Below are positions 24 through 55,027 of a stretch of DNA of 64,000 bases, piece by piece. Source of the stretch: Firmicutes bacterium M10-2. GTDB taxonomy: Bacteria > Bacillota_I > Bacilli_A > Erysipelotrichales > Erysipelotrichaceae. Location of the stretch: assembly GCA_000403415.2 (NCBI GenBank), contig KE159698.1:1-64000 (forward strand), given 5' to 3'. Within the stretch, counting starts at the first letter, position 1; each line of letters begins with the position of its first letter. The notes beneath the pieces were generated by a model. The model did not search any database. It was not told where the DNA came from and was given only the letters and a program-made list of their open reading frames with translations. The translations under genes and the position numbers were made by a program.

Positions 24-845
24 TCAACGCTCGTTTATATTACCTCTTTCTTCTTTGTCTGTCAACTGTTTTATGCGATATTTTTTATTTTTTTTAGAGG
101 ACAGATCAAATACACTTAATCCTTGCTCGTCATAGAGAATATTTGCCCCACTCGAAATCAAATAATTACATCCTACAAATTTCAATTCATTAAAAGGTTG
201 AGGTAAACAATACACCTCCCTCCCTAATGATAGACATTCATTTACAGTCAGCATCGTTCCGCTTTTCATTCCTGCTTCGACTACAATCACGCTTTCACAA
301 GCCGCAGCAATCAATCGATTGCGCCATGGAAAATTTCGAGCATAAGGAGGTACGCCGGGCGGATATTCCGAAATAACCAAATGCTTCCTTTTCATCCATT
401 CATACAAAGAGTGATTTTCTTTTGGATATATAATATCCAATCCACATCCGATAATTCCAATCGTTTTTTGATCTAAACTACTCCAATGAGCAGCTGCATC
501 AATCCCTTTTGCCAATCCGGAAACAATAACATAACGATTTTTCAATTTCTGGACGATCCGCTTCGTATTATTTATACCCGCCTGTGAACAGTTTCGCGCG
601 CCGATGATTGCTACTTTCGGTTCATTAAGCCGCTCTAATTTTCCTTCGAAAAACAAGATCCACGGAGGACACTCCAAATCCAAAAAGCATTTCGGATAAC
701 TTGGTTCTCCAATCGTTACAAACGAGTGATTTGTTTCTAAAATTTGGTATTCTTCTTTTCGATCTATAGCTTTGGCGATTTTCTCCCAATCCCCTTTATA
801 CAATACGGCATAGTATAAGATTGCCTGTCTAAAATTATATCTCAT
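24..845 (-). CDS. dprA: DNA processing protein DprA (Smf family)
   Basis: DprA binds incoming single-stranded DNA during natural transformation and loads RecA. The 273-residue protein has the Rossmann-like DprA fold: SGLAKGIDAAAH at 109-120, GCGLDIIYP around 133-141, NFPWRNRLIAA around 171-181 and SGTMLTV around 195-201. The chain ends soon after this fold with a basic tail, so the C-terminal winged-helix (DML1) domain of many DprA proteins is absent or reduced. It is the last gene of the ffh-to-rnhB run but has its own promoter-like sequence filling the 43-bp gap after rnhB. No Shine-Dalgarno precedes the ATG. The family assignment is firm; the leaderless start is inference. Confidence 0.95.
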   Translation of the reverse strand: MRYNFRQAILYYAVLYKGDWEKIAKAIDRKEEYQILETNHSFVTIGEPSYPKCFLDLECPPWILFFEGKLERLNEPKVAIIGARNCSQAGINNTKRIVQKLKNRYVIVSGLAKGIDAAAHWSSLDQKTIGIIGCGLDIIYPKENHSLYEWMKRKHLVISEYPPGVPPYARNFPWRNRLIAAACESVIVVEAGMKSGTMLTVNECLSLGREVYCLPQPFNELKFVGCNYLISSGANILYDEQGLSVFDLSSKKNKKYRIKQLTDKEERGNINER

Positions 846-861
846 ACTTTATATATACGAA
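843..861 (-). promoter_or_regulatory. competence-type promoter motif abutting dprA start
   Basis: The minus strand reads TTCGTATATATAAAGTATG, the last three bases being the dprA start codon. The same 19 bases end at the comFA start (38691-38709). TATATA lies at -12 to -7 relative to the A of ATG, the position of a -10 box if transcription starts at the start codon. A GG pair lies at -36/-35 at both genes. It resembles neither a ComK box nor a plain TTGACA/TATAAT promoter. Confidence 0.6.
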
Positions 862-888
862 TTCTTCGATTAAAAAGTGCCAAATTTC

Positions 889-5435: not shown

Positions 5436-6854
5436 TTATTTTTTCTTTTTCTTCGCTTTGGATTTTTTCTTCTTTTTCGAACCGGCATGCTTACTTGCAC
5501 CATAAGCTCCTGCACCCTTCTGCATTCCTTGGAGCATATTCATATTCGGCATCGATCCGCCCTTCATCATTTTCGTCAAAGTCTGCATTTGCTCAACCTG
5601 CGTGATCAGACGATTGACATCCGCTACCTTCACGCCCGCTCCCTTGGCGATACGGGACTTTCTGCTAGCCTTTAGACACTTCGGATTTTCTCTTTCGTAA
5701 GGTGTCATAGACTGAATGATCGCTTCGCTCTTCTTGACGCTTCCTTGTACTTGTTCGTCATCGATTTGTCCGCTCAGCTTATTTAATCCGGGAATCATCC
5801 CGAGCATTTTCTGCATAGATCCCATTTTTTTAACTTGTTTGAATTGATCAAGAAGATCGTTGAATGTAAAGATCCCCTCATTCATTCGCTGAACCGTTCG
5901 CTTTTGGGTTTCCATATCGATTTTATCTTGAGCCTGTTCGACAAGCGTCATGATATCGCCCATTCCCAAAATACGGTCTGCCATACGGTCCGGATGGAAT
6001 TCTTCGAGATCGTCCACCTTTTCGCCGCTCGATACGAACATTACAGGAACATCGGTAATCGATCGTACCGACAGCAATCCACCACCACGGGCATCTCCGT
6101 CCATCTTGGTCACAACAAGTCCCGTAATGCTTAACTGATCATTAAATTCACGGGCAACCGTCACGATATCCTGACCGGTCATTGCATCGACCGTTAAGAG
6201 AATATCGTCTGGCTGAACAATTTCTTTCATTTGCTTGAGCTCGTCCATCAGCTCTTCATCCACGTGCAGACGACCTGCGGTATCGAAAATCACCAGATCT
6301 TTTTGATGTTCCTTCGCGTAAGCGAGTCCTTGCCGAGCTGTCGTGATCGCATCTACATCAGCACCAAGCGAAAATACATCCACATCAATGCTTTTTCCTA
6401 AAGTCTGCAACTGTTCGATGGCGGCTGGACGCACCACGTCACATGCAACGAGCAGGACACGCTTTTTCAGCTTTTCTTTTGCGAATTTCGCAATTTTTGC
6501 CGAAGCCGTCGTTTTTCCCGTTCCTTGCAGACCAACCATCATAATGTTGGTGATTCCTTGTTTTTTGAAATGAAGTTTTGCGTCACTTTCTCCTAATAAC
6601 GACTGCAATTCGTCATGGACGATCTTGACAACCATTTGTCCCGGATTCAGGGAATCGAGCACTTCCTGTCCGAGCGCTTTTTCCTTTACTTTTTCAACAA
6701 ATTCTTTGACAACAGTGTAGTTAACATCTGCTTCCAACAACGACATGCGCACTTCCTTGAGCATATCGTTCATATTTTTCTCAGTCAGTTTTCCCTGGCC
6801 TGATATATTTTTGATCGCCTTATTCAGACGTTCCGATAATGATTCAAAAGCCAT
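5436..6854 (-). CDS. ffh: Signal recognition particle protein Ffh
   Basis: Ffh (SRP54) binds 4.5S/scRNA and signal sequences and delivers nascent chains to FtsY at the membrane. The 472-residue protein has the N-terminal four-helix bundle, the GTPase P-loop GLQGTGKTT (108-116), DTAGRLHVDEEL, TKMDGDARGG, and a methionine-rich M domain from about 300. The normally conserved RNA-binding stretch of the M domain reads SRKSRIAKGAG. The C-terminus is a poly-lysine tail. The ylxM gene that often precedes ffh is not present. A Shine-Dalgarno (GGAA) precedes the start. Confidence 0.98.
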   Translation of the reverse strand: MAFESLSERLNKAIKNISGQGKLTEKNMNDMLKEVRMSLLEADVNYTVVKEFVEKVKEKALGQEVLDSLNPGQMVVKIVHDELQSLLGESDAKLHFKKQGITNIMMVGLQGTGKTTASAKIAKFAKEKLKKRVLLVACDVVRPAAIEQLQTLGKSIDVDVFSLGADVDAITTARQGLAYAKEHQKDLVIFDTAGRLHVDEELMDELKQMKEIVQPDDILLTVDAMTGQDIVTVAREFNDQLSITGLVVTKMDGDARGGGLLSVRSITDVPVMFVSSGEKVDDLEEFHPDRMADRILGMGDIMTLVEQAQDKIDMETQKRTVQRMNEGIFTFNDLLDQFKQVKKMGSMQKMLGMIPGLNKLSGQIDDEQVQGSVKKSEAIIQSMTPYERENPKCLKASRKSRIAKGAGVKVADVNRLITQVEQMQTLTKMMKGGSMPNMNMLQGMQKGAGAYGASKHAGSKKKKKSKAKKKKK

Positions 6855-6958
6855 AGTAAGTTCCTTTCTATTGATGCCTTGCTCTTTATTCTATCGTATT
6901 TTACTTTTTTGTGCTACAAAACAGGTCAATCTCTCTTTTTTGTTTTATAATGATTCAT

Positions 6959-7816
6959 ATGAAACAAAAAAGAAAGATCAATTATTTTCGACTTCTTTTG
7001 ATGGCCATAATCCCGCTACTTATTATAGGAGTACTTTTTTATGGAATCAAACAATTCGGAAATTCTTCAAAGGAAAGCGAAACATCTCAATCTATCGCTG
7101 CGCAATCCGATTTAACGACCTTACTGACAAAGTCTATGCAACCCATTGGCAAAGTCATGTACGTATGGGGAGGCGGATGGAACAAAGAAGATACAGGATC
7201 CGGTTCTGAAACAAGACAGTTAGGGCTTGCATCCACTTGGCAATCATTCGCGAATAGGCAGGATGCCTCTTATAATGTGGAAGATCACTTATATGAAATC
7301 CATAACGGATTGGATTGTTCGGGATACATCGGCTGGCTTCTTTACAATACTTTCGAAACCGAAAACGGAAAAACCGGCTATGTGCATTTATCAAACGAAA
7401 TCGGTCCATCTCTTGAACAAAAAGGATTCGGACACATGATTGCGGCAAATTCGATCGAAACGTATGAACCGGGAGATCTTCTCGCCAATAAAGATCACAT
7501 TTTCATGGTAATCGCGCAATGTGAAGATGGTAGTTTGCTTATTGCGCACTCCTCTCCTCCGGGTGTACGGATTTGCGGTACCCCAACTTTATCCGGTGAT
7601 CCTGATTCTCAAGCACTCGCTCTTGCTCAAAAAATCATGTCCACTCAATTTCCGGATTGGTATGCTAAATATCCGGATTGTTCTTGTGACTTTTCTTTTT
7701 TAAGCGATTACGATCAATTTCGCTGGAATTCAAACAAATTAAAAGATGAGAACAGCTTGCGAAACAAATCCGCTCAGGAAGTTGTTTCTGTACTTTTCCC
7801 ATCTCTTGTGTATTGA
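6959..7816 (+). CDS. NlpC/P60-like cell-wall cysteine hydrolase
   Basis: Membrane-anchored protein of 285 residues with an N-terminal signal anchor (about 9-30) and an NlpC/P60-type papain-like domain. The likely nucleophile is Cys120 in GLDCSGY and the likely His is His180 in NKDHIFMV. Such enzymes cut peptide bonds in peptidoglycan stems; the substrate here is inferred. A longer reading from 6911 is possible, but ATG 6959 starts exactly at a signal-anchor sequence. TATAAT at 6946-6951 lies only 7 bases before this ATG and there is no Shine-Dalgarno, suggesting a leaderless mRNA. The 3' end overlaps the convergent acetyltransferase gene by 43 bp. Confidence 0.82.
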   Translation: MKQKRKINYFRLLLMAIIPLLIIGVLFYGIKQFGNSSKESETSQSIAAQSDLTTLLTKSMQPIGKVMYVWGGGWNKEDTGSGSETRQLGLASTWQSFANRQDASYNVEDHLYEIHNGLDCSGYIGWLLYNTFETENGKTGYVHLSNEIGPSLEQKGFGHMIAANSIETYEPGDLLANKDHIFMVIAQCEDGSLLIAHSSPPGVRICGTPTLSGDPDSQALALAQKIMSTQFPDWYAKYPDCSCDFSFLSDYDQFRWNSNKLKDENSLRNKSAQEVVSVLFPSLVY

Positions 7817-8286: not shown

Positions 8287-9221
8287 TTCCAATCAAACTC
8301 CTTTTTTTTCCATCCATACTTCCAACAGGCAATTTGCAGCCATGCACCGTAGCCTGCTTTAAGCGGCCAAGATAATTTTTTCCAATCAATCTTATCCGGA
8401 ACAAAACGGACCGGATCTTTTTTCGAACAAATAAAGATTAATGTGTAAATAATGACCATATCCGTATTGTAGTAATTGATCGTAAAATCGAACGACTCAT
8501 CCGGTAACGCTTTTTTCAGATCCCTTTCCTGATCGTGATAAGCCTGGCGCATATTGTATACAGTCTGCAAACTCATATGATTCGTAAGAGAACCTCTTCT
8601 TTGTACATAATGATAATAACGGTTCGGTATAGCAGCAATTTTTTTAGCGTTTAAAAATGTTTTAAAGATTGTTCTTGTATCTTCAAATCCTTCCAAGTGA
8701 TTGGGAAAACGTATACCTTGAAACATTTCGATCTTAAAGAGTTTTGCCCAAGGATAATTGTTCACTCCCTGATTTGCGATCAATTTATGCAGCGCTTCAA
8801 TGTTTGTCATTGTCTGTCTGGAAGCAACTTTTCGCAAAAGCGGAATGATTTTAAAATAATCCATGCGATATCCGCACAACACGATATCACACGATTGCTC
8901 ATGCATGGTCGTGACCATCTGCTTGATCATGTTCGGATGAATATAATCATCGCTGTCAACAAACAGGACATAACGTCCATGTGCATGATCAAGGGCACGG
9001 TTTCTTGTCGTCGAAATGCCGGCATTCTTATAAGAATACACAAACACATTCGGATAATTTCGTGCATATTGCTCGCAAATCTGAAGTGAACGATCGCTTG
9101 ATCCATCATTGATCAATACAATCTCAATATTCGGGTATGTTTGATAAAGGACAGAATCAATGCAGTGACCTACATATTTTTCTACGTTATATACAGGGAT
9201 AAGAACACTAACCTTCTCCAT
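8283..9221 (-). CDS. Family 2 glycosyltransferase
   Basis: GT-A fold transferase of 312 residues using a nucleotide-sugar donor. The N-terminus SVLIPVYNVEKYVGHCIDS, NDGSSDRS (38-45) and the metal-binding FVDSDDY (87-93) are diagnostic for GT2. It has no transmembrane segment, so it probably acts at the cytoplasmic face on a lipid-linked or cell-surface glycan. ATG 9221 is chosen because AAGGAG lies just upstream; it overlaps the ABC permease end by 14 bp. The acceptor is unknown and no other glycan genes are adjacent. Confidence 0.88.
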   Translation of the reverse strand: MEKVSVLIPVYNVEKYVGHCIDSVLYQTYPNIEIVLINDGSSDRSLQICEQYARNYPNVFVYSYKNAGISTTRNRALDHAHGRYVLFVDSDDYIHPNMIKQMVTTMHEQSCDIVLCGYRMDYFKIIPLLRKVASRQTMTNIEALHKLIANQGVNNYPWAKLFKIEMFQGIRFPNHLEGFEDTRTIFKTFLNAKKIAAIPNRYYHYVQRRGSLTNHMSLQTVYNMRQAYHDQERDLKKALPDESFDFTINYYNTDMVIIYTLIFICSKKDPVRFVPDKIDWKKLSWPLKAGYGAWLQIACWKYGWKKKEFDWK

Positions 9222-9966
9222 ACTCTTTCTCCTTTTTCTTCTCAATCGTAACGATTCCTTTCTTGATCCCTTTCTCGATCAGAAAGATCAAGACCAGCAG
9301 CCATAAGGTCCATGCGGTCAACGAAGCGATATCGATATTCAATTTTGCAATTTGCATACTGTGGCCGATCCCAAGACGCACTTGTGACAAGATTTCCGCC
9401 ATGACCCCAACTTTGAAACCTAAAGAAGAAATGGATACAATAACCGATTGCAGCGTATCGGCAAGCATGGGGACATAAATTGCTTTGATCATATATGAGC
9501 GCGGCTGAGGATAAATTTCGAACACAGTGCTCCATTGTTTTTGAATTGTATACAATGCATCCACACAAGCTTGGTATACAATCGGAAACAAGACAAGGAA
9601 CATCACAAAAAAAATGCTTTTTTCCCCGTCTACCCAAAATAAGAACAAAATCACAAGGGTAACATTCGGAATACTTCGCAAAATCAGGATCAATCGATCG
9701 ATCCATGACATATTTTGATGAAAAAACCGCAGAAAGGCAATCAGAATGCCAAGCAGCAACGAAGCGAACACACCGAACAATACTCGTCCCAAACTCACAA
9801 GTGTTATTTGATAAAACTGTTTTTGTCCAAGATCGGCAATCATGATCCCAATCACGGAAAAAGGCGAGGGAAAGATGATCGGATTATCAATCAGAAGATA
9901 CAAGCCTTCGCAGATGAGTACGAAACAAATGGCCAAGGCCAATTTCTTAATCGTCTTCTTGATCAT
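9208..9966 (-). CDS. ABC transporter permease (SsuC/TauC-like family)
   Basis: Polytopic inner-membrane permease of 252 residues with about six hydrophobic segments. The EAA-type coupling loop reads GVMAEILSQVRLGIG, as in permeases for nitrate, sulfonate, taurine or pyrimidine precursors. No ATPase or substrate-binding protein is adjacent, so the partner genes must be elsewhere. The ATG at 9966 overlaps the TPR gene end by 20 bp and gives a normal N-terminal membrane segment. An ATG at 10014 would add 16 residues; neither has a clear Shine-Dalgarno. Confidence 0.82.
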   Translation of the reverse strand: MIKKTIKKLALAICFVLICEGLYLLIDNPIIFPSPFSVIGIMIADLGQKQFYQITLVSLGRVLFGVFASLLLGILIAFLRFFHQNMSWIDRLILILRSIPNVTLVILFLFWVDGEKSIFFVMFLVLFPIVYQACVDALYTIQKQWSTVFEIYPQPRSYMIKAIYVPMLADTLQSVIVSISSLGFKVGVMAEILSQVRLGIGHSMQIAKLNIDIASLTAWTLWLLVLIFLIEKGIKKGIVTIEKKKEKEYGEG

Positions 9967-26839: not shown

Positions 26840-26876
26840 TTTCTCCTTTTGAAACGAGGTTTCTTATAATGAAATC

Positions 26877-27956
26877 ATGAAAAAACTCACGAAACTTTTT
26901 GCCTGGTATTGTGGTTTTTGTCTTGGAATATTTTTCTGTTCAAATCCAAGTTTCGCAATGGAAGTCCCCGCCTCGACTGGAACCAACGTCAACCCGGCTA
27001 TTTACAACTCGCTCAAAGGACAAAAAGTTGCCTTGACCCGCTATCCTATCCTTTATGAAGCTTGCTTTGATGCGTTCAGCGATGAAAAGGATGAAGGAAC
27101 TTATGTGATTCCTGGGCTGCTTCGAACCGAAACCATCAATGTGCACAAAAAAGTAGAAGAATGTACGGAAATGGTACCTCAAGGCATTACAATTGCCGAT
27201 GATTACATCATGATCAGTGCGTACTGCCACGAACATAAACACAACAGTGTAGTGTACATTTTGAATAAATACAGCCATTTATTTATTAAAACTGTAGTTC
27301 TGAATACAAGATCTCATGTCGGAGGACTGGCTTATGATCCCATTTGTCGAAATCTTTGGGTTGCAACCAAAAATTTCGAGAAAGATCATGGAAGCGTTTC
27401 TTCTTTGCGGCTTGCCGCAATCGATCAATACAATTTTTATAAAACAAAAAAACCGATCGCTTTCGATTATGTGCAAAACATACCCAAATTGAAGAATACG
27501 ACTTTTGCCACATATTATGGAGGAGAAATTTATTGCGGCACACTTGATCGGACAAAAAAAGAGCTACTCATTTATATTTATCGAATCGATCCTTGGAGCG
27601 GAAAGATCAATCCGCGTCTGACACATTCGATTCGTGTAGCCGGATCGGATTACATGGGAGATTATTGTCAAGGTATAGCAATCAACAACGATTATATTGT
27701 CCTATCTGCAAGCAACGGACCCAATCAACAATCTTCATTGGCTTTTTTTAAGAAAAACAAAAACTATTTCTTAAGCGGAAAACCAAACAAAATGGTCAAT
27801 CTTCCGCCACGTCTTGAGCAAGTCAGCTTTGACAGAAAAGGCAATCTTGTCCTCTTGTTTGAATCGGCTGCTGCCCCTTACAAGAAAAAAGAAACGTTAG
27901 ATATCGATCGCGTGCTTAAAGGAAATGTAGAAAAATTTTTATCTTATTCCTCGTAA
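26877..27956 (+). CDS. Secreted protein of unknown function, beta-propeller-like
   Basis: A 359-residue protein with a clear signal peptide (about 1-27, cut after SFA). The rest has repeated strand-turn-strand segments such as PQGITIADDYIMISAYC, HVGGLAYDPICRNLWVAT and CQGIAINNDYIVLSAS that resemble propeller blades; no catalytic motif is evident. Cysteines are frequent for a secreted protein of this phylum. TATAAT at 26865-26870 ends six bases before the ATG and there is no Shine-Dalgarno at usable distance, suggesting a leaderless transcript. It follows the glucosaminidase by 37 bp. I do not recognise a named family. Confidence 0.75.
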   Translation: MKKLTKLFAWYCGFCLGIFFCSNPSFAMEVPASTGTNVNPAIYNSLKGQKVALTRYPILYEACFDAFSDEKDEGTYVIPGLLRTETINVHKKVEECTEMVPQGITIADDYIMISAYCHEHKHNSVVYILNKYSHLFIKTVVLNTRSHVGGLAYDPICRNLWVATKNFEKDHGSVSSLRLAAIDQYNFYKTKKPIAFDYVQNIPKLKNTTFATYYGGEIYCGTLDRTKKELLIYIYRIDPWSGKINPRLTHSIRVAGSDYMGDYCQGIAINNDYIVLSASNGPNQQSSLAFFKKNKNYFLSGKPNKMVNLPPRLEQVSFDRKGNLVLLFESAAAPYKKKETLDIDRVLKGNVEKFLSYSS

Positions 27957-29898: not shown

Positions 29899-30648
29899 AT
29901 GTATACAGATAGTCATTGTCATATCACATGCGATCAATTGTATTCGCATATCGACGAGGTTCTCGAAAATATGGATGCCATTTCGTCTTGTTTGATCATG
30001 TGCACCAACGAAGAAGAATTTTTACGGGCCGAAAAACTGAAAGAAAAAGATTCTCGTTTCAAGATTGCATTTGGGTGGTTTCCGGGAGATGCGAAAGAAA
30101 TTGACGAAAAAAAGCTTATGTTATTGGAATCGTATCTTCAACAGCAACGCGTTGATGTTCTTGGCGAGATTGGTTTGGATTACTATTGGGATACATCTTT
30201 TAACGACCTTCAAAAAGAATTGTTCGTCAAACAGATCGAATTGGCGAATCAATACAACGTCCCTATTTCGATTCATATGCGTGAAGCCACAAAAGACTGT
30301 CTGGACATTTTGACAAAATATGCCAAGACGAAGATTATCTTTCACTGTTTTTCAGGAAGCACGGAAACAATGAAAGAATGCCTACGACTTGATTCATTGA
30401 TTTCATTTGCCGGACCAATCACCTTCAAAAATGCCAAACACGGGCCTGATTGTGTAAAAGAATGTCCTTTGGAACGTATGTTGACCGAAACCGATTCACC
30501 TTATTTGACACCGGTTCCTTATCGGGGAAAAGAAAATCAGCCTAAATACGTTGAATTTGTCACAAAAAAAATCAGCGAGCTCAAGGAAATCGAACTTGAA
30601 ACCCTTTGTGAACAAATCGAAACCAATTTTCTATCCCTTTTTAATTAA
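29899..30648 (+). CDS. tatD: TatD family metal-dependent DNase/hydrolase
   Basis: TIM-barrel metal hydrolase of 249 residues. Metal ligands fit the family: TDSHCHI (HxH), GEIGLDYYWD (Glu), IHMREA (His), HCFSGS (His) and TETDSPYLTP (Asp). TatD enzymes act as 3'-5' exonucleases in DNA repair or apoptosis-like DNA decay. AAGGAGG lies just upstream of the ATG. The 3' end overlaps the convergent unknown gene by 18 bp. Confidence 0.92.
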   Translation: MYTDSHCHITCDQLYSHIDEVLENMDAISSCLIMCTNEEEFLRAEKLKEKDSRFKIAFGWFPGDAKEIDEKKLMLLESYLQQQRVDVLGEIGLDYYWDTSFNDLQKELFVKQIELANQYNVPISIHMREATKDCLDILTKYAKTKIIFHCFSGSTETMKECLRLDSLISFAGPITFKNAKHGPDCVKECPLERMLTETDSPYLTPVPYRGKENQPKYVEFVTKKISELKEIELETLCEQIETNFLSLFN

Positions 30649-30990
30649 GTTTTTTAAATCTTTTAAATCCATTTCAAAAAGATCCTGCTGATTCCATTGT
30701 CTGTTTTCAATCTGTAATATCGCAACAGTCGGATCGTATTGAATGGGAAAATTCATCCTGTTTTCCGGAGGCAGCGTTTCAATGCAAGAAACAGTCGGAT
30801 CGATCGATAACGTCAGGGATAGTGCGCTGGCCGCCAACACGTAAGCAAGAGCAATTTTTTCATCGTTAAAAGAGGCTTTTACGAGATCGCCTCTTTTTTT
30901 TCCTTCCAACAGCCAATTGTTTCGAATCGTAGTCGCTTTTTCGTATAAATCAAATTCTTCAACCTTTGTTTTTTCATAAATCGTTTTCAT
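30631..30990 (-). CDS. Hypothetical protein, 119 residues
   Basis: A soluble protein beginning MKTIYEKTKVEEFDLYEKA, with an Ala/Leu-rich central helix (LAYVLAASALSLTLSI) and an acidic end. I recognise no family. ATG 30990 is chosen because an upstream in-frame start would add 14 residues with no ribosome site. TACAAT lies seven bases before this ATG, again resembling a leaderless start. It is divergent from the XRE regulator across 109 bp and overlaps tatD tail-to-tail. Confidence 0.6.
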   Translation of the reverse strand: MKTIYEKTKVEEFDLYEKATTIRNNWLLEGKKRGDLVKASFNDEKIALAYVLAASALSLTLSIDPTVSCIETLPPENRMNFPIQYDPTVAILQIENRQWNQQDLFEMDLKDLKNLIKKG

Positions 30991-31047
30991 ATCTTTTATT
31001 GTATTACATAACCTATTAGTTGGGTATATCAAACGCTTTACATGGTT

Positions 31048-31457: not shown

Positions 31458-31648
31458 CAGAGTGTTGACAAACTACCTATTTTGAAAAAATTAAATTTCA
31501 ATAAAATAAAAGTGGGTAAAAAGGTCTAAAAAAAGAGTAATATTAGGTACTTAAATACCTCAAATTGCTCTTTTTTTATTCATTTGTGGGAGAAAAATAA
31601 AAAGCTGTGACAAAGCCGATTTGAAAAATCGACTTTGTCAACAGCCTG
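31458..31648 (+). mobile_element. 191-bp MITE-like element, copy A
   Basis: Ends are CAGAGTGTTGACAAA and, inverted, CAGGCTGTTGACAAA (13 of 15 match). It has no ORF. Inside are a bidirectional terminator-like hairpin at 31528-31577 (A7GAG paired with CTCT7) and a 14-bp hairpin at 31608-31640 (TGACAAAG..CTTTGTCA). It is identical over all 191 bases to 43006-43196 in reverse orientation. It is flanked by perfect 22-bp direct repeats that are whole terminators. The structure fits a non-autonomous transposon moved by a transposase encoded elsewhere. Confidence 0.85.
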
Positions 31649-36898: not shown

Positions 36899-36923
36899 AG
36901 AAGAACCTTCGGGTTCTTTTTTT
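36899..36923. terminator. bidirectional UUCG terminator between TetR pair and comFC
   Basis: AAGAACC-TTCG-GGTTCTT then TTTTT on the plus strand; on the minus strand the same stem lies just after the comFC stop. Confidence 0.85.
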
Positions 36924-37617
36924 ATTTCCAGAAGGAGTGTTTTATTTGATCATCGGCATGCTCTTCAATCCACAAAGGATGAGCTGCCAATACAAGCACA
37001 TCCCGACAAGAAATAAGCAAAAGAGCTGCTTTGATTGTCTGTCCGGTCGTGATCACATCGTCAAGCAGCAGCTGTCGAGAACGATTTCGAATCGGATAGC
37101 ATATTTTTTTCTTCAAAGAACAATGAATTTGTTTTCGTTGCTCTTTAGAGAGTGAAGATTGCTTAATAGAATCTGTTCGATAAAACGGCGAAGCAATCGG
37201 TTCCTTGACTTCCTTAAATATTTCAAGAACCGGTTCAAATCCTCGCAAAGCTCTTTTTTCTTCTCCGGAACAAAGTGCTATGCAATCAAAGGATTTCAAC
37301 TTCTTTTTTAAAAAATCTTTTTCTGCGTATAAGAATATATCTTTGAGCACAATATCTCTTTGTTCTTTAAATTGAAAAAACAAACCTTCAATCCAAGTAT
37401 CGTATTCATAAAGAATATGATAATTGACATTATGGATACGATACGTTTTTTTGTGAACACGAAACCGCTCCAAACACTTCTTGCAGACAATCACTTCATC
37501 ATCGAGAAAAAATGAAATCGGAATATCTTGTTCTTTTTCTAAACATATTTTGCATGTTGATTCATCCATTCGATTGTCGATACGCACGTTTGAATTTCTT
37601 TTGTTTTTCTTTGGCAT
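36922..37617 (-). CDS. comFC: ComF phosphoribosyltransferase-like protein ComFC
   Basis: A 231-residue competence-associated protein of the ComF/GntX family. The N-terminal zinc knuckle (CKICLEKEQD..VCKKCLERF) is followed by a PRTase-like domain whose PRPP loop is LLLDDVITTGQTIKAALLL. It takes part in DNA uptake with ComFA; its exact role is unsettled. ATG 37617 is preceded by GGAGAGGGGG, eight bases away. That places the first 79 bases inside comFA in another frame. A start at 37569 would shorten the overlap but has no ribosome site. Confidence 0.9.
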   Translation of the reverse strand: MPKKNKRNSNVRIDNRMDESTCKICLEKEQDIPISFFLDDEVIVCKKCLERFRVHKKTYRIHNVNYHILYEYDTWIEGLFFQFKEQRDIVLKDIFLYAEKDFLKKKLKSFDCIALCSGEEKRALRGFEPVLEIFKEVKEPIASPFYRTDSIKQSSLSKEQRKQIHCSLKKKICYPIRNRSRQLLLDDVITTGQTIKAALLLISCRDVLVLAAHPLWIEEHADDQIKHSFWK

Positions 37618-38693
37618 AAACACACCCCCTCTCCATATGGTTCGGTAAATTTTCTTCCGACTCGACCAAATATCTGGATGAGCGATGCATTGGAAAAAAC
37701 GGGATGATCAGCGCGAAAAACAATCACCTGCACTCCGGGTATTGTAATTCCTCGTTCCAATAAAGTGGTGGAAATGAGAACGGAGTATCGTTTTTTACGA
37801 AATTGTTCCATAATTTCATCTTTATTTTCGATCATTGAATGAATGGGGTGCGCTCCGAAACGGCGTAAAAGGAAGCAAAAAAGAGAAGTATCTTTTTTTC
37901 TGGGAACGAATACGATAGTTTGTTTATCTTGAACATGAAATTTTTTACACAATCGATAAATCGCAAAATATTGGAACATGATCGGCAACGTATATACTTT
38001 CGGAACAATTAACGGTTTTTTATGCGGTCTTTGAAACAGCGAAACAACTTCATACTTATGTTCATCGATTTCTTTTTTAAGTGCTGGGTCGATCGTTGCC
38101 GATAAACAAAGCTGCTGTCCGCAGCATGCTTGTTCGACAAATTGTTTCAGGATATGATTGCCGGCATAAGGAAACGCATCCACTTCATCAAGGATGAGAA
38201 GGTCGAATGCTTTCGGGTACCGATAAAGCTGATGAATCGTGCATACAATAATATCTCCATCCAAATCACTTGTATATCCTTGACATACTTCAACGATTTT
38301 CAAACTTGGAAATACTTCCCGCAGACGTTGCGTGATTTCCAAAACAACTTGGCGTCGTGAAATTGCAAATCCTATTTTCTTTCCTTGTCGCAAATAATCG
38401 CAAATGCTCGCATAGCATATTTCCGTCTTTCCCGCGCCTGTAGCAGCATATACAAATACATTTTTTCCCTTCTTTAAATGACTGAGCGCTTTTTGCGATG
38501 CTTCTTCTTGAAGAGGTGTCAATGCGAATTTCAAATCTGGCCGGACCTTTTTCGGTTTATTTTTACAGATCGTACTTTTTGCTTCTTGGCCGAGATCCAT
38601 ACGGCCAAAACGTACGCATTGCCGACAGTACCAAACCCCTTGGTCATAGGCAAATAATTTCGGATCTGTATTGTTGCATCGAATACATTTCAT
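37539..38693 (-). CDS. comFA: DNA uptake ATPase/helicase ComFA
   Basis: ComFA is the superfamily 2 DNA translocase that drives transforming DNA across the membrane. The 384-residue protein has a four-Cys zinc region at the N-terminus (CIRCNN, CRQCVRFG), Walker A VYAATGAGKTEICYASI, the DEAD-box variant LILDEVDAFPY, and the helicase C-terminal motifs (FVPRKKDTS, LLERGITIPGVQVIVF, QIFGRVGR). The start codon directly abuts the motif also found at dprA, with no Shine-Dalgarno. It forms an operon with comFC. Confidence 0.94.
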   Translation of the reverse strand: MKCIRCNNTDPKLFAYDQGVWYCRQCVRFGRMDLGQEAKSTICKNKPKKVRPDLKFALTPLQEEASQKALSHLKKGKNVFVYAATGAGKTEICYASICDYLRQGKKIGFAISRRQVVLEITQRLREVFPSLKIVEVCQGYTSDLDGDIIVCTIHQLYRYPKAFDLLILDEVDAFPYAGNHILKQFVEQACCGQQLCLSATIDPALKKEIDEHKYEVVSLFQRPHKKPLIVPKVYTLPIMFQYFAIYRLCKKFHVQDKQTIVFVPRKKDTSLFCFLLRRFGAHPIHSMIENKDEIMEQFRKKRYSVLISTTLLERGITIPGVQVIVFRADHPVFSNASLIQIFGRVGRKFTEPYGEGVCLCQRKTKEIQTCVSTIEWMNQHAKYV

Positions 38694-38709
38694 ACTTTAT
38701 ATATACGAA
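38691..38709 (-). promoter_or_regulatory. competence-type promoter motif abutting comFA start
   Basis: The minus strand TTCGTATATATAAAGTATG is identical to the dprA copy at 843-861. TATATA again occupies -12 to -7, and GG again lies at -36/-35 (38728-38729). Confidence 0.6.
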
Positions 38710-38770
38710 AAAAATTAAAATAAATGACCTTTTTCATAAAAATTTAAGAAATTTATGCAAAAATAGATGT

Positions 38771-49305: not shown

Positions 49306-49401
49306 GAAATTTTTAGTTTTTTCACCAACAATGAAAGGCTTTTCTGGCTTTTTGAAAGCATTTTCTTCATTTTCATTCCTTTGGCGTGATAAAATAGGAA
49401 T

Positions 49402-49935
49402 ATGATTGACACTTCAAAAATGAAAGGGCATTTGTCTACGATAAACAAACACAAGTTCAAAGTCATGGAACTTTGCTTTCGCTGCGGGCTATATAAACAA
49501 GGTCTGCTTCATGATCTGAGTAAATATTCATGGATCGAACTGAAAACAGGTTTTCGGTATTATCAAGGATTTCGTTCCCCGATCGATGCCCAAAAGGAAG
49601 CGGAAGGCTATTCAATGTCTTGGCTGCACCATAAAGGAAGAAATCCCCATCATTGGGAGTATTGGCTCGATAATTCGAAGAATGGCGTGCGCCCTATCCG
49701 GATGCCCGAACAATACGTCTATGAAATGTTTTGCGATCGTGTGGCGGCAAGCATGATTTACCAAAAAGAAAAGTACACTGATCACAGTGCACTTGACTAC
49801 TATATGCAAGGAAGAAACCGTATCCTCATTCATCCCGAAACGGATCGGCTCATTCTTTATTTATTGTGTTATTTATCTGAATACGGACTCGAAAAAACAT
49901 GCGCATATATCAAGAATCAGGTTACTCGACTGTAA
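49402..49935 (+). CDS. DUF5662-like protein
   Basis: A 177-residue soluble protein with His-rich motifs GLLHDLSKYSWIEL and SWLHHKGRNPHHWEYW followed by FCDRVAASMIYQKEKY. The pattern matches DUF5662, which looks like a metal-dependent HD-type domain; the substrate is unknown. TAAAAT at 49390-49395 ends six bases before the ATG; AGGA is present but only two bases from the ATG, so a leaderless start is likely. It overlaps glmS tail-to-tail by 14 bp. Confidence 0.75.
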   Translation: MIDTSKMKGHLSTINKHKFKVMELCFRCGLYKQGLLHDLSKYSWIELKTGFRYYQGFRSPIDAQKEAEGYSMSWLHHKGRNPHHWEYWLDNSKNGVRPIRMPEQYVYEMFCDRVAASMIYQKEKYTDHSALDYYMQGRNRILIHPETDRLILYLLCYLSEYGLEKTCAYIKNQVTRL

Positions 49936-54325: not shown

Positions 54326-54409
54326 AGGGAATCCTCCGTTGAATTATTATAGCACATATTATGTATTCATATGGTATTCACATCTGAAAAGATATGTTAT
54401 GATAAGATC

Positions 54410-55027
54410 ATGAAAAAATTAAAAAATTGGAAATCTTATTTGATCATGCTCGTGATTGGAATATTGATCGGTGCGTTCTTGTTCTTTGGAATGGTCAACT
54501 TAAATATTGGGCAGGGAGAAGCCAAGGTGACGAATACAACCGTTCTTGAACAGCTTCAAAGTGCCTTGGAACTTATTACCACCAAATACAATTATTCCAA
54601 GGTCGGACGTTATGAAAATTCTCTTGAAATCAATGGATGGTCGATCCCTTTGACCAATAAGTATTTTATCTTAACGTATGAGGGTGAAGCACAGCTTGGT
54701 GTCGATCTTGACCAGGCAGACATTACGGTAACGAATAATAAAATTTCGATTCAGCTTCCGGATGTCGAAGTATTATCGAATACAATCGATGAAAAAAGTA
54801 TCGAAGTATACAATGAATCGAAAAACGTATTCAATCCGATCAGTGTCAATGACTACAAAGAATTTGCGATCCAGCAAAAAGAAGCAGTCGATGAAGAACT
54901 TAAACAAAAAAACATTTACGAAACAGCTCGTCAAAATACGATGGATGCGATTACGAAATTGCTGAATATGTCGGAAACGATCCATGATCAATATAAGATA
55001 GAAGTAAAATTTAAAGACGCAAACTAG
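54410..55027 (+). CDS. DUF4230-like membrane-anchored protein
   Basis: A 205-residue protein with an N-terminal membrane anchor (about 8-28, SYLIMLVIGILIGAFLFFGM) and an extracytoplasmic domain matching DUF4230 (LEQLQSALELITTKYNYSKV, VGRYENSLE, LGVDLDQADITV). Function unknown. TATGAT at 54398-54403 ends six bases before ATG 54410 with no Shine-Dalgarno, so a leaderless start is likely. An upstream in-frame start at 54371 would add residues before the anchor. Confidence 0.75.
   Translation: MKKLKNWKSYLIMLVIGILIGAFLFFGMVNLNIGQGEAKVTNTTVLEQLQSALELITTKYNYSKVGRYENSLEINGWSIPLTNKYFILTYEGEAQLGVDLDQADITVTNNKISIQLPDVEVLSNTIDEKSIEVYNESKNVFNPISVNDYKEFAIQQKEAVDEELKQKNIYETARQNTMDAITKLLNMSETIHDQYKIEVKFKDAN

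Follow-up and report, generated by a model that had tools for sequence, protein, structure and literature searches.

Two promoter classes probably place transcription initiation directly on the start codon, as judged from promoter geometry, a statistical excess and conservation: a sigma-A class and a competence class. The first would be read by the housekeeping sigma-A, with a -10 hexamer ending 6 nt (sometimes 7 nt) before ATG and often extended by TGn, and would serve a few percent of the genes in this genus. The second would consist of AAGGTCAC, approximately 16-17 nt and then TNCGTATA, would probably be read by a SigH/ComX-like factor encoded near nusG, and would set +1 on the first base of ATG, or no more than 1-2 nt from it, for comEA(-comEC), comFA(-comFC), dprA, a comC-like peptidase gene and radC. 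The resulting mRNAs would start with 5'-AUG and would be translated without a Shine-Dalgarno (SD) sequence, through direct recognition of the 5'-terminal AUG by the ribosome and initiator tRNA.

The window was the whole analysed stretch of 64,000 nt (C18:1-64000), with a GC content of 39%, and the source genome (G000) was 2.41 Mb in 22 contigs. The nearest relative compared (G001) belongs to the same genus, G008 to another genus of the same family and G047 to another family of the same order. The initial annotation had proposed seven leaderless starts as one class. All seven were located in the window sequence with the claimed -10, gap and ATG geometry, and all seven started with ATG, in keeping with the AUG start of TA-led leaderless genes. 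The single class broke down: five of the seven are ordinary sigma-A promoters, and dprA and comFA form a separate class which carries a competence (ComX/SigH-type) box with the core TNCGTATA.

The competence box and its spacing to the start codon

The 19-mer TTCGTATATATAAAGTATG was identical in dprA and comFA and had exactly four exact copies genome-wide. All four were at ATGs, namely those of dprA, comFA, comEA (followed by comEC) and a gene for a comC-like prepilin peptidase (127 aa, A24-like, Pfam E 0.002, below cut-off). In the window, the features of this class were:

24-845, minus strand: dprA, predicted leaderless start at 845 (TIGR00732, E 3e-59)
843-861, minus strand: TTCGTATATATAAAGTATG, competence -10 box running into the dprA ATG (exact 19-mer)
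877-881, minus strand: GGCAC, -35-like element of dprA, 22 nt upstream of CG
36922-37623, minus strand: comFC-like gene (ComF family TIGR00201, E 2.8e-8, below cut-off)
37539-38693, minus strand: comFA, predicted leaderless start at 38693 (helicase families, ComFA-like helicase)
38691-38709, minus strand: TTCGTATATATAAAGTATG, competence -10 box running into the comFA ATG (exact 19-mer)
38725-38731, minus strand: AAGGTCA, -35-like element of comFA (pattern AAGGTN19-20CGTATA)

The DprA N-terminus aligned with the dprA starts of relatives, and the comFA start was fixed by a CxxC zinc finger at residues 3-6, with M1-K2-C3 invariant in six aligned proteins. The comFC-like gene overlaps the 3' end of comFA in part, and the two form a probable comFA-comFC operon. 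A co-directional gene ends 43 nt upstream of dprA, so that read-through could also yield a leadered transcript.

A search of the own genome with a shorter motif showed a near-copy at radC, AAGGTCAC-N16-TTCGTATATATAAGT-ATG, and the 15-bp core TTCGTATATATAAAG was identical in five places. The ATG followed directly after the box in radC and in the four 19-mer genes, and the other two boxes, before rodZ-pgsA-cinA-recA and before an FHA-kinase-FtsK/EssC-WXG100-like operon, were leadered. Matches with two mismatches elsewhere in the genome were mostly intragenic and all matches together were less than 3x the reversed-pattern control; those retained either combined the upstream element with a fitting gene context or had a core that was exact or had one mismatch. 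All nine com sites of the own genome and G001 had an AAGGT(C/A)-like element 22-23 nt before CG and a distance of 13 or 14 nt from the C of CG to ATG, and in orthologues of the two genomes the offset could be 13 in one and 14 in the other, either way round. There was no other -10 between the com box and ATG. TATATA, which had been taken as the -10 of dprA and comFA, was rejected, since the cross-genus conservation lies elsewhere and the conserved element is TNCGTATA instead.

The box before rodZ-pgsA-cinA-recA (L055 463, minus strand, G000:C1:200463; L201 17127-20000) was accompanied by a separate TGCTATAAT promoter closer to rodZ, so that recA appears to be under both competence and housekeeping promoters. 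The second leadered box, in full AAAAAGGTCAC...TTCGTATATATAAAG, preceded a type VII secretion-like operon (L063 7066-14820, G000:C12:67066-74820) that encodes an FHA protein, a kinase-fold protein, an FHA+FtsK/EssC ATPase and two WXG100-like proteins. The leader of the operon contains an SD as well as a small GAGGG/CCCTC hairpin. The box before this operon suggests that type VII secretion may be under competence control. No com box was found before comGA in the own genome or G001. The gene has a TATAAT promoter and an SD, and thus the pilus operon stands outside the set and seems to have a regulation of its own. The comGA leader of this genus, GGGAATCATTAGAAAGGGGG, was conserved (L071 approximately 5482-6550, minus strand; L216 approximately 8411-9240, minus strand).

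Among relatives, dprA, comFA, comEA and radC of G001 all showed the box-to-ATG layout of the own genome. For dprA, five further genera (G003, G013, G023, G024 and G031) had TNCG(T/A)AT(A/T) and a distance of 13-14 nt from its C to ATG. In G008, G016 and G029 an SD came after the box and the ATG stood further downstream. The 13-14 nt layout of comFA was present in 19 of the 68 tree loci, including those of Holdemanella, Faecalicoccus, Floccifex, Catenisphaera and Absicoccus, and clustered mainly in the clade of the own genome (7 label changes vs 16.7 when shuffled). For comEA the leaderless layout was confined to G000 and G001, and in other genera a leader, GAAGGGTGAT-like or with AGGAGG, came after this box. 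Relatives without the 13-14 nt spacing commonly had the same box, AGGAGG and an ATG 24-30 nt after the C. G002 and G018 gave zero first-look candidates in every protein or family search and were not counted as gene losses. In a second family of the order, the box followed by TAGGAGG stood before comGA, dprA and other genes, and a box variant with AG for CG followed by TAGGAGG stood before recA, both far above the reversed-pattern control. The occurrence of the box in both families, leadered or leaderless, indicates one promoter family common to the order. On this comparison, the start codon has moved onto the predicted transcription start in some lineages and genes. The box with TAGGAGG was also seen in the second family before genes for an Rpn-type nuclease, a DUF1016-like protein and other defence- or mobile-element-like proteins (L008, L027, L032, L047-L049; names from sequence reading).

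The pneumococcal ComX motif obtained from RNA-seq, TTTTTNHNNNYTHTTMCGAATADWNWRRD / TTMCGAATADWNWRRD-TSS, places the transcription start site (TSS) 13 nt downstream of the C in CG (PMC6560143). The own com sites matched the last 16 positions of this motif at 13-14 of 16. The match predicts that +1 falls on the first base of ATG in the own radC and in most relatives, and one base upstream of ATG in the other own com genes, a shift that falls within the one-base TSS tolerance used in PMC6560143. Where a TACGAATA-type box has A as the fifth base of the 8-mer, the own sites had T, and the G003 dprA site was exactly TACGAATA. The box preceded comEA, comFA, dprA, the comC-like gene, radC and rodZ-pgsA-cinA-recA; comGA of this genus was without it, whereas the late competence regulon of the cin-box includes comG. 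By its sequence, AAGGTCAC together with the box makes up a putative competence promoter that is very similar to the ComX/SigX cin-box of streptococci.

A classical activator or repressor site overlapping the start codon, in place of a sigma factor promoter, is an unlikely reading of the com element. The identity of the 15-bp core in five places would also fit a DNA-binding regulator, but the element has two conserved parts at a fixed spacing of 22-23 nt, resembles the mapped ComX promoter including its T-rich upstream and A-rich downstream stretches, and leaves no second -10 between box and ATG.

The sigma-A class and the 6-nt peak

The five starts of the sigma-A class in the window were:

6946-6951, plus strand: TATAAT, sigma-A-type -10, 7 nt before ATG 6959
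6959-7816, plus strand: protein labelled NlpC, N-terminal membrane anchor, predicted leaderless
26865-26870, plus strand: TATAAT, 6 nt before ATG 26877
26877-27956, plus strand: secreted protein, signal peptide MKKLTKLFAWYCGFCLGIFFCS, predicted leaderless
30998-31003, minus strand: TACAAT, 7 nt before the ATG at 30990
30631-30990, minus strand: unknown 119-aa protein, predicted leaderless
49390-49395, plus strand: TAAAAT after TGA (extended -10), 6 nt before ATG 49402
49402-49935, plus strand: DUF5662 protein, predicted leaderless (PF18907, E 2e-39)
54398-54403, plus strand: TATGAT after TGT (extended -10), 6 nt before ATG 54410
54410-55027, plus strand: DUF4230 protein, predicted leaderless (PF14014, E 6e-29; longer reading from 54371)

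The NlpC label of the 6959 protein was not confirmed, as the protein had no match in Pfam or NCBIfam. Its gene has a second in-frame ATG at 6950, inside the -10 region, and no orthologue was found near ffh in G001, G013 or G023. The secreted protein at 26877 likewise had no match in Pfam or NCBIfam. The claimed lack of a usable SD is arguable at the DUF5662 gene, where AGGA stands 2 nt before the ATG.

The distance from the -10 to ATG was plotted for 684 kb of the own genome, 460 kb of G001 and 400 kb each of G008 and G047. In the own-genome sample, 548 genes were called with a home-made coding-score caller and 747 candidate ATGs were used. A near-consensus -10 hexamer was TA...T that agreed with TATAAT at five or more of the six positions, the gap was measured to the in-frame ATG, and the background for the gap test was the mean at gaps 3-5 and 8-14. 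The second peak at 6-7 bases that had been predicted was found in this sample, with 15 hexamers at gap 6 and 6 at gap 7 compared to a mean of 3.1 elsewhere (Poisson P approximately 1e-6 for gap 6). With the window left out, 12 were found at gap 6 vs 2.6 expected (P approximately 2e-5). A gap of 6 puts the first T of TANNNT at -12, as in the TA-led leaderless genes of PMC3160421. Among the called starts of the own genome, the gap-6 hexamer occurred in 8/161 that were SD-poor vs 1/172 that were SD-rich (Fisher P 0.017), and the ordinary promoter hump at 17-40 nt was formed mainly by SD-rich genes whereas the 6-nt peak was formed by SD-poor genes. G001 repeated the peak with 12/105 SD-poor vs 0/112 SD-rich called starts, 3 of the 12 being copies of one repeated gene. 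The peak was absent in the 400 kb sampled from each of G008 and G047. A rough excess of approximately 15 in 548 suggests a leaderless share of about 3% of the own-genome genes.

Orthologues also kept the spacing. The DUF5662 gene had TACAAT-6-ATG in G001, TATAAT-7-ATG in G003 and a leader with a 21-nt gap in G023. For the DUF4230 gene, whose start at 54410 agreed with the start of the G001 orthologue, the own genome had TGTTATGAT-6-ATG, G001 had TGCTATGAT-6-ATG and G023 had an AAGGAGG leader. The spacing of 6-7 nt was thus kept in both genes while the bases of hexamer and spacer changed, as expected of a transcription start fixed on AUG. Together, the peak, its recurrence in the congeneric genome and the orthologue spacing support the proposal that transcription starts at the first base of ATG or immediately beside it, and leaderless transcription at these starts is a well-supported prediction.

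It is very unlikely that the -10-like hexamers arose by chance in AT-rich DNA, with the true promoters upstream and the leaders translated without SD (e.g., AT-rich and unstructured). In the own-genome sample, AT-rich intergenic background did supply approximately 3 hexamers at each distance, and SD-poor genes without a near -10 also occurred; the excess, however, was sharp at exactly 6 nt in two genomes and almost missing from SD-rich genes, and the spacing was kept in orthologues whose flanking sequence had changed. That dprA and comFA have ordinary sigma-A promoters is more improbable still, for their TATATA does stand 6 nt from ATG much as in the other five but was not kept, leaderless relatives showing CGTATTAGTAAAT, CGTATAAGAGTAT, CGTATATCGGAAT and CGAATATATATAAT, while CG was kept across genera, the -35-like AAGGT element was kept in G001 and the 19-mer was confined to com genes.

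The candidate sigma factor and known systems

For the competence promoter, a search for sigma region 2 in the own genome showed three sigma-70 family proteins: RpoD, one ECF and one SigH-like protein. The SigH-like protein has 203 aa, is encoded between rlmB and nusG, and gave hits to the sigma70-ECF superfamily (1.8e-10) and SigH (8e-8) in NCBIfam, both below cut-off and SigH far below. By analogy with Lactobacillus sakei and Staphylococcus aureus (PMC3364868, PMC3486894), it is the likely competence factor. The same analogy, the resemblance and the gene neighbourhood suggest that it probably reads the com box. The locus of the ECF sigma factor (L020, G000:C19:54049) contains a long masked stretch.

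The streptococcal ComX/SigX regulon is alike in its gene set (comEA, comFA, dprA, prepilin peptidase, radC and a cinA-recA operon), and the cin-box shares the TNCG(T/A)ATA core, the T-rich stretch upstream and the A-rich stretch downstream. The layout found here is also seen in Streptococcus mitis cilC (prepilin peptidase) and SK321 comFA, which have TACGAATA-7-ATG (Table 4, PMC6001120), cases that are given there without the word leaderless. The sites described here differ from those of streptococci in the T, not A, at the fifth position of most sites, in the conserved AAGGTCAC-like upstream element and in the lack of a box before comG of this genus. In addition, most com genes here are predicted to be leaderless, whereas ATG lies 19-22 nt past the box in S. 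mitis comEA, dprA, radC and coiA. In L. sakei and S. aureus, a SigH-family factor of non-sporulating Bacillota activates late com genes, and the gene neighbourhood is conserved (PMC3364868, PMC3486894). A leaderless layout is not mentioned in the parts considered, and here we infer the sigma role. The sigma-A leaderless genes of Streptococcus and Lactococcus resemble the five starts described above in having the first T of TATAAT approximately 12 nt upstream of the start codon, frequent TGn and AUG starts (PMC3160421, PMC4448216, PMC6212727).

Published leaderless genes and repeats in the window

Leaderless genes had been regarded as uncommon in Bacillota, a view contradicted by PMC3160421, PMC4448216, PMC6431027 and PMC6212727. 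A survey of 209 Firmicutes genomes reported them in 56, at a mean of 4.2%, the clades named being Lactobacillales and Mycoplasma and not Erysipelotrichia (PMC3160421). In Streptococcus agalactiae and S. pyogenes, 8-9% of mRNAs are leaderless (PMC4448216, PMC6431027), and in S. pneumoniae 9% of operons, with one leaderless gene shown to be efficiently translated (PMC6212727). The share estimated here, roughly 3% of genes, is lower than the 8-9% of mRNAs or operons in streptococci. No description of leaderless genes in Erysipelotrichaceae or of competence regulation in this group was found in the open-licence literature, which is weak evidence; a mostly leaderless competence regulon in this family looks new. 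It provides a concrete competence promoter that is inexpensive to test, and with it a candidate regulon, for Holdemanella, Faecalicoccus, Floccifex and their relatives, a major lineage of the gut. The orthologues behind one box, which differ between genera in whether they have a leader, also form a natural series that can probe when and why bacteria lose the SD leader. A bolder scenario, to which we give little credence, is that the competence regulon of the clade shifted to leaderless mRNAs one gene at a time and that this shift is a functional device, with the SigH/ComX-like factor also activating type VII secretion. The messages of the competent state would then bypass SD initiation, and DNA uptake would be coupled to attack on neighbours.

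Two repeats were seen in the window. The segment TTGAAAAAATTAAATTTCAATAAAATAAAAGTGGGTAAAAAGGTCTAAAA was identical at 31502 on the plus strand and 43152 on the minus strand, and the pair is probably two copies of a repeat. At the 3' end of dprA (24-110), the last 25-30 residues of DprA had short matches at eight further sites of the genome, and a repeat element seems to supply this end of the gene.
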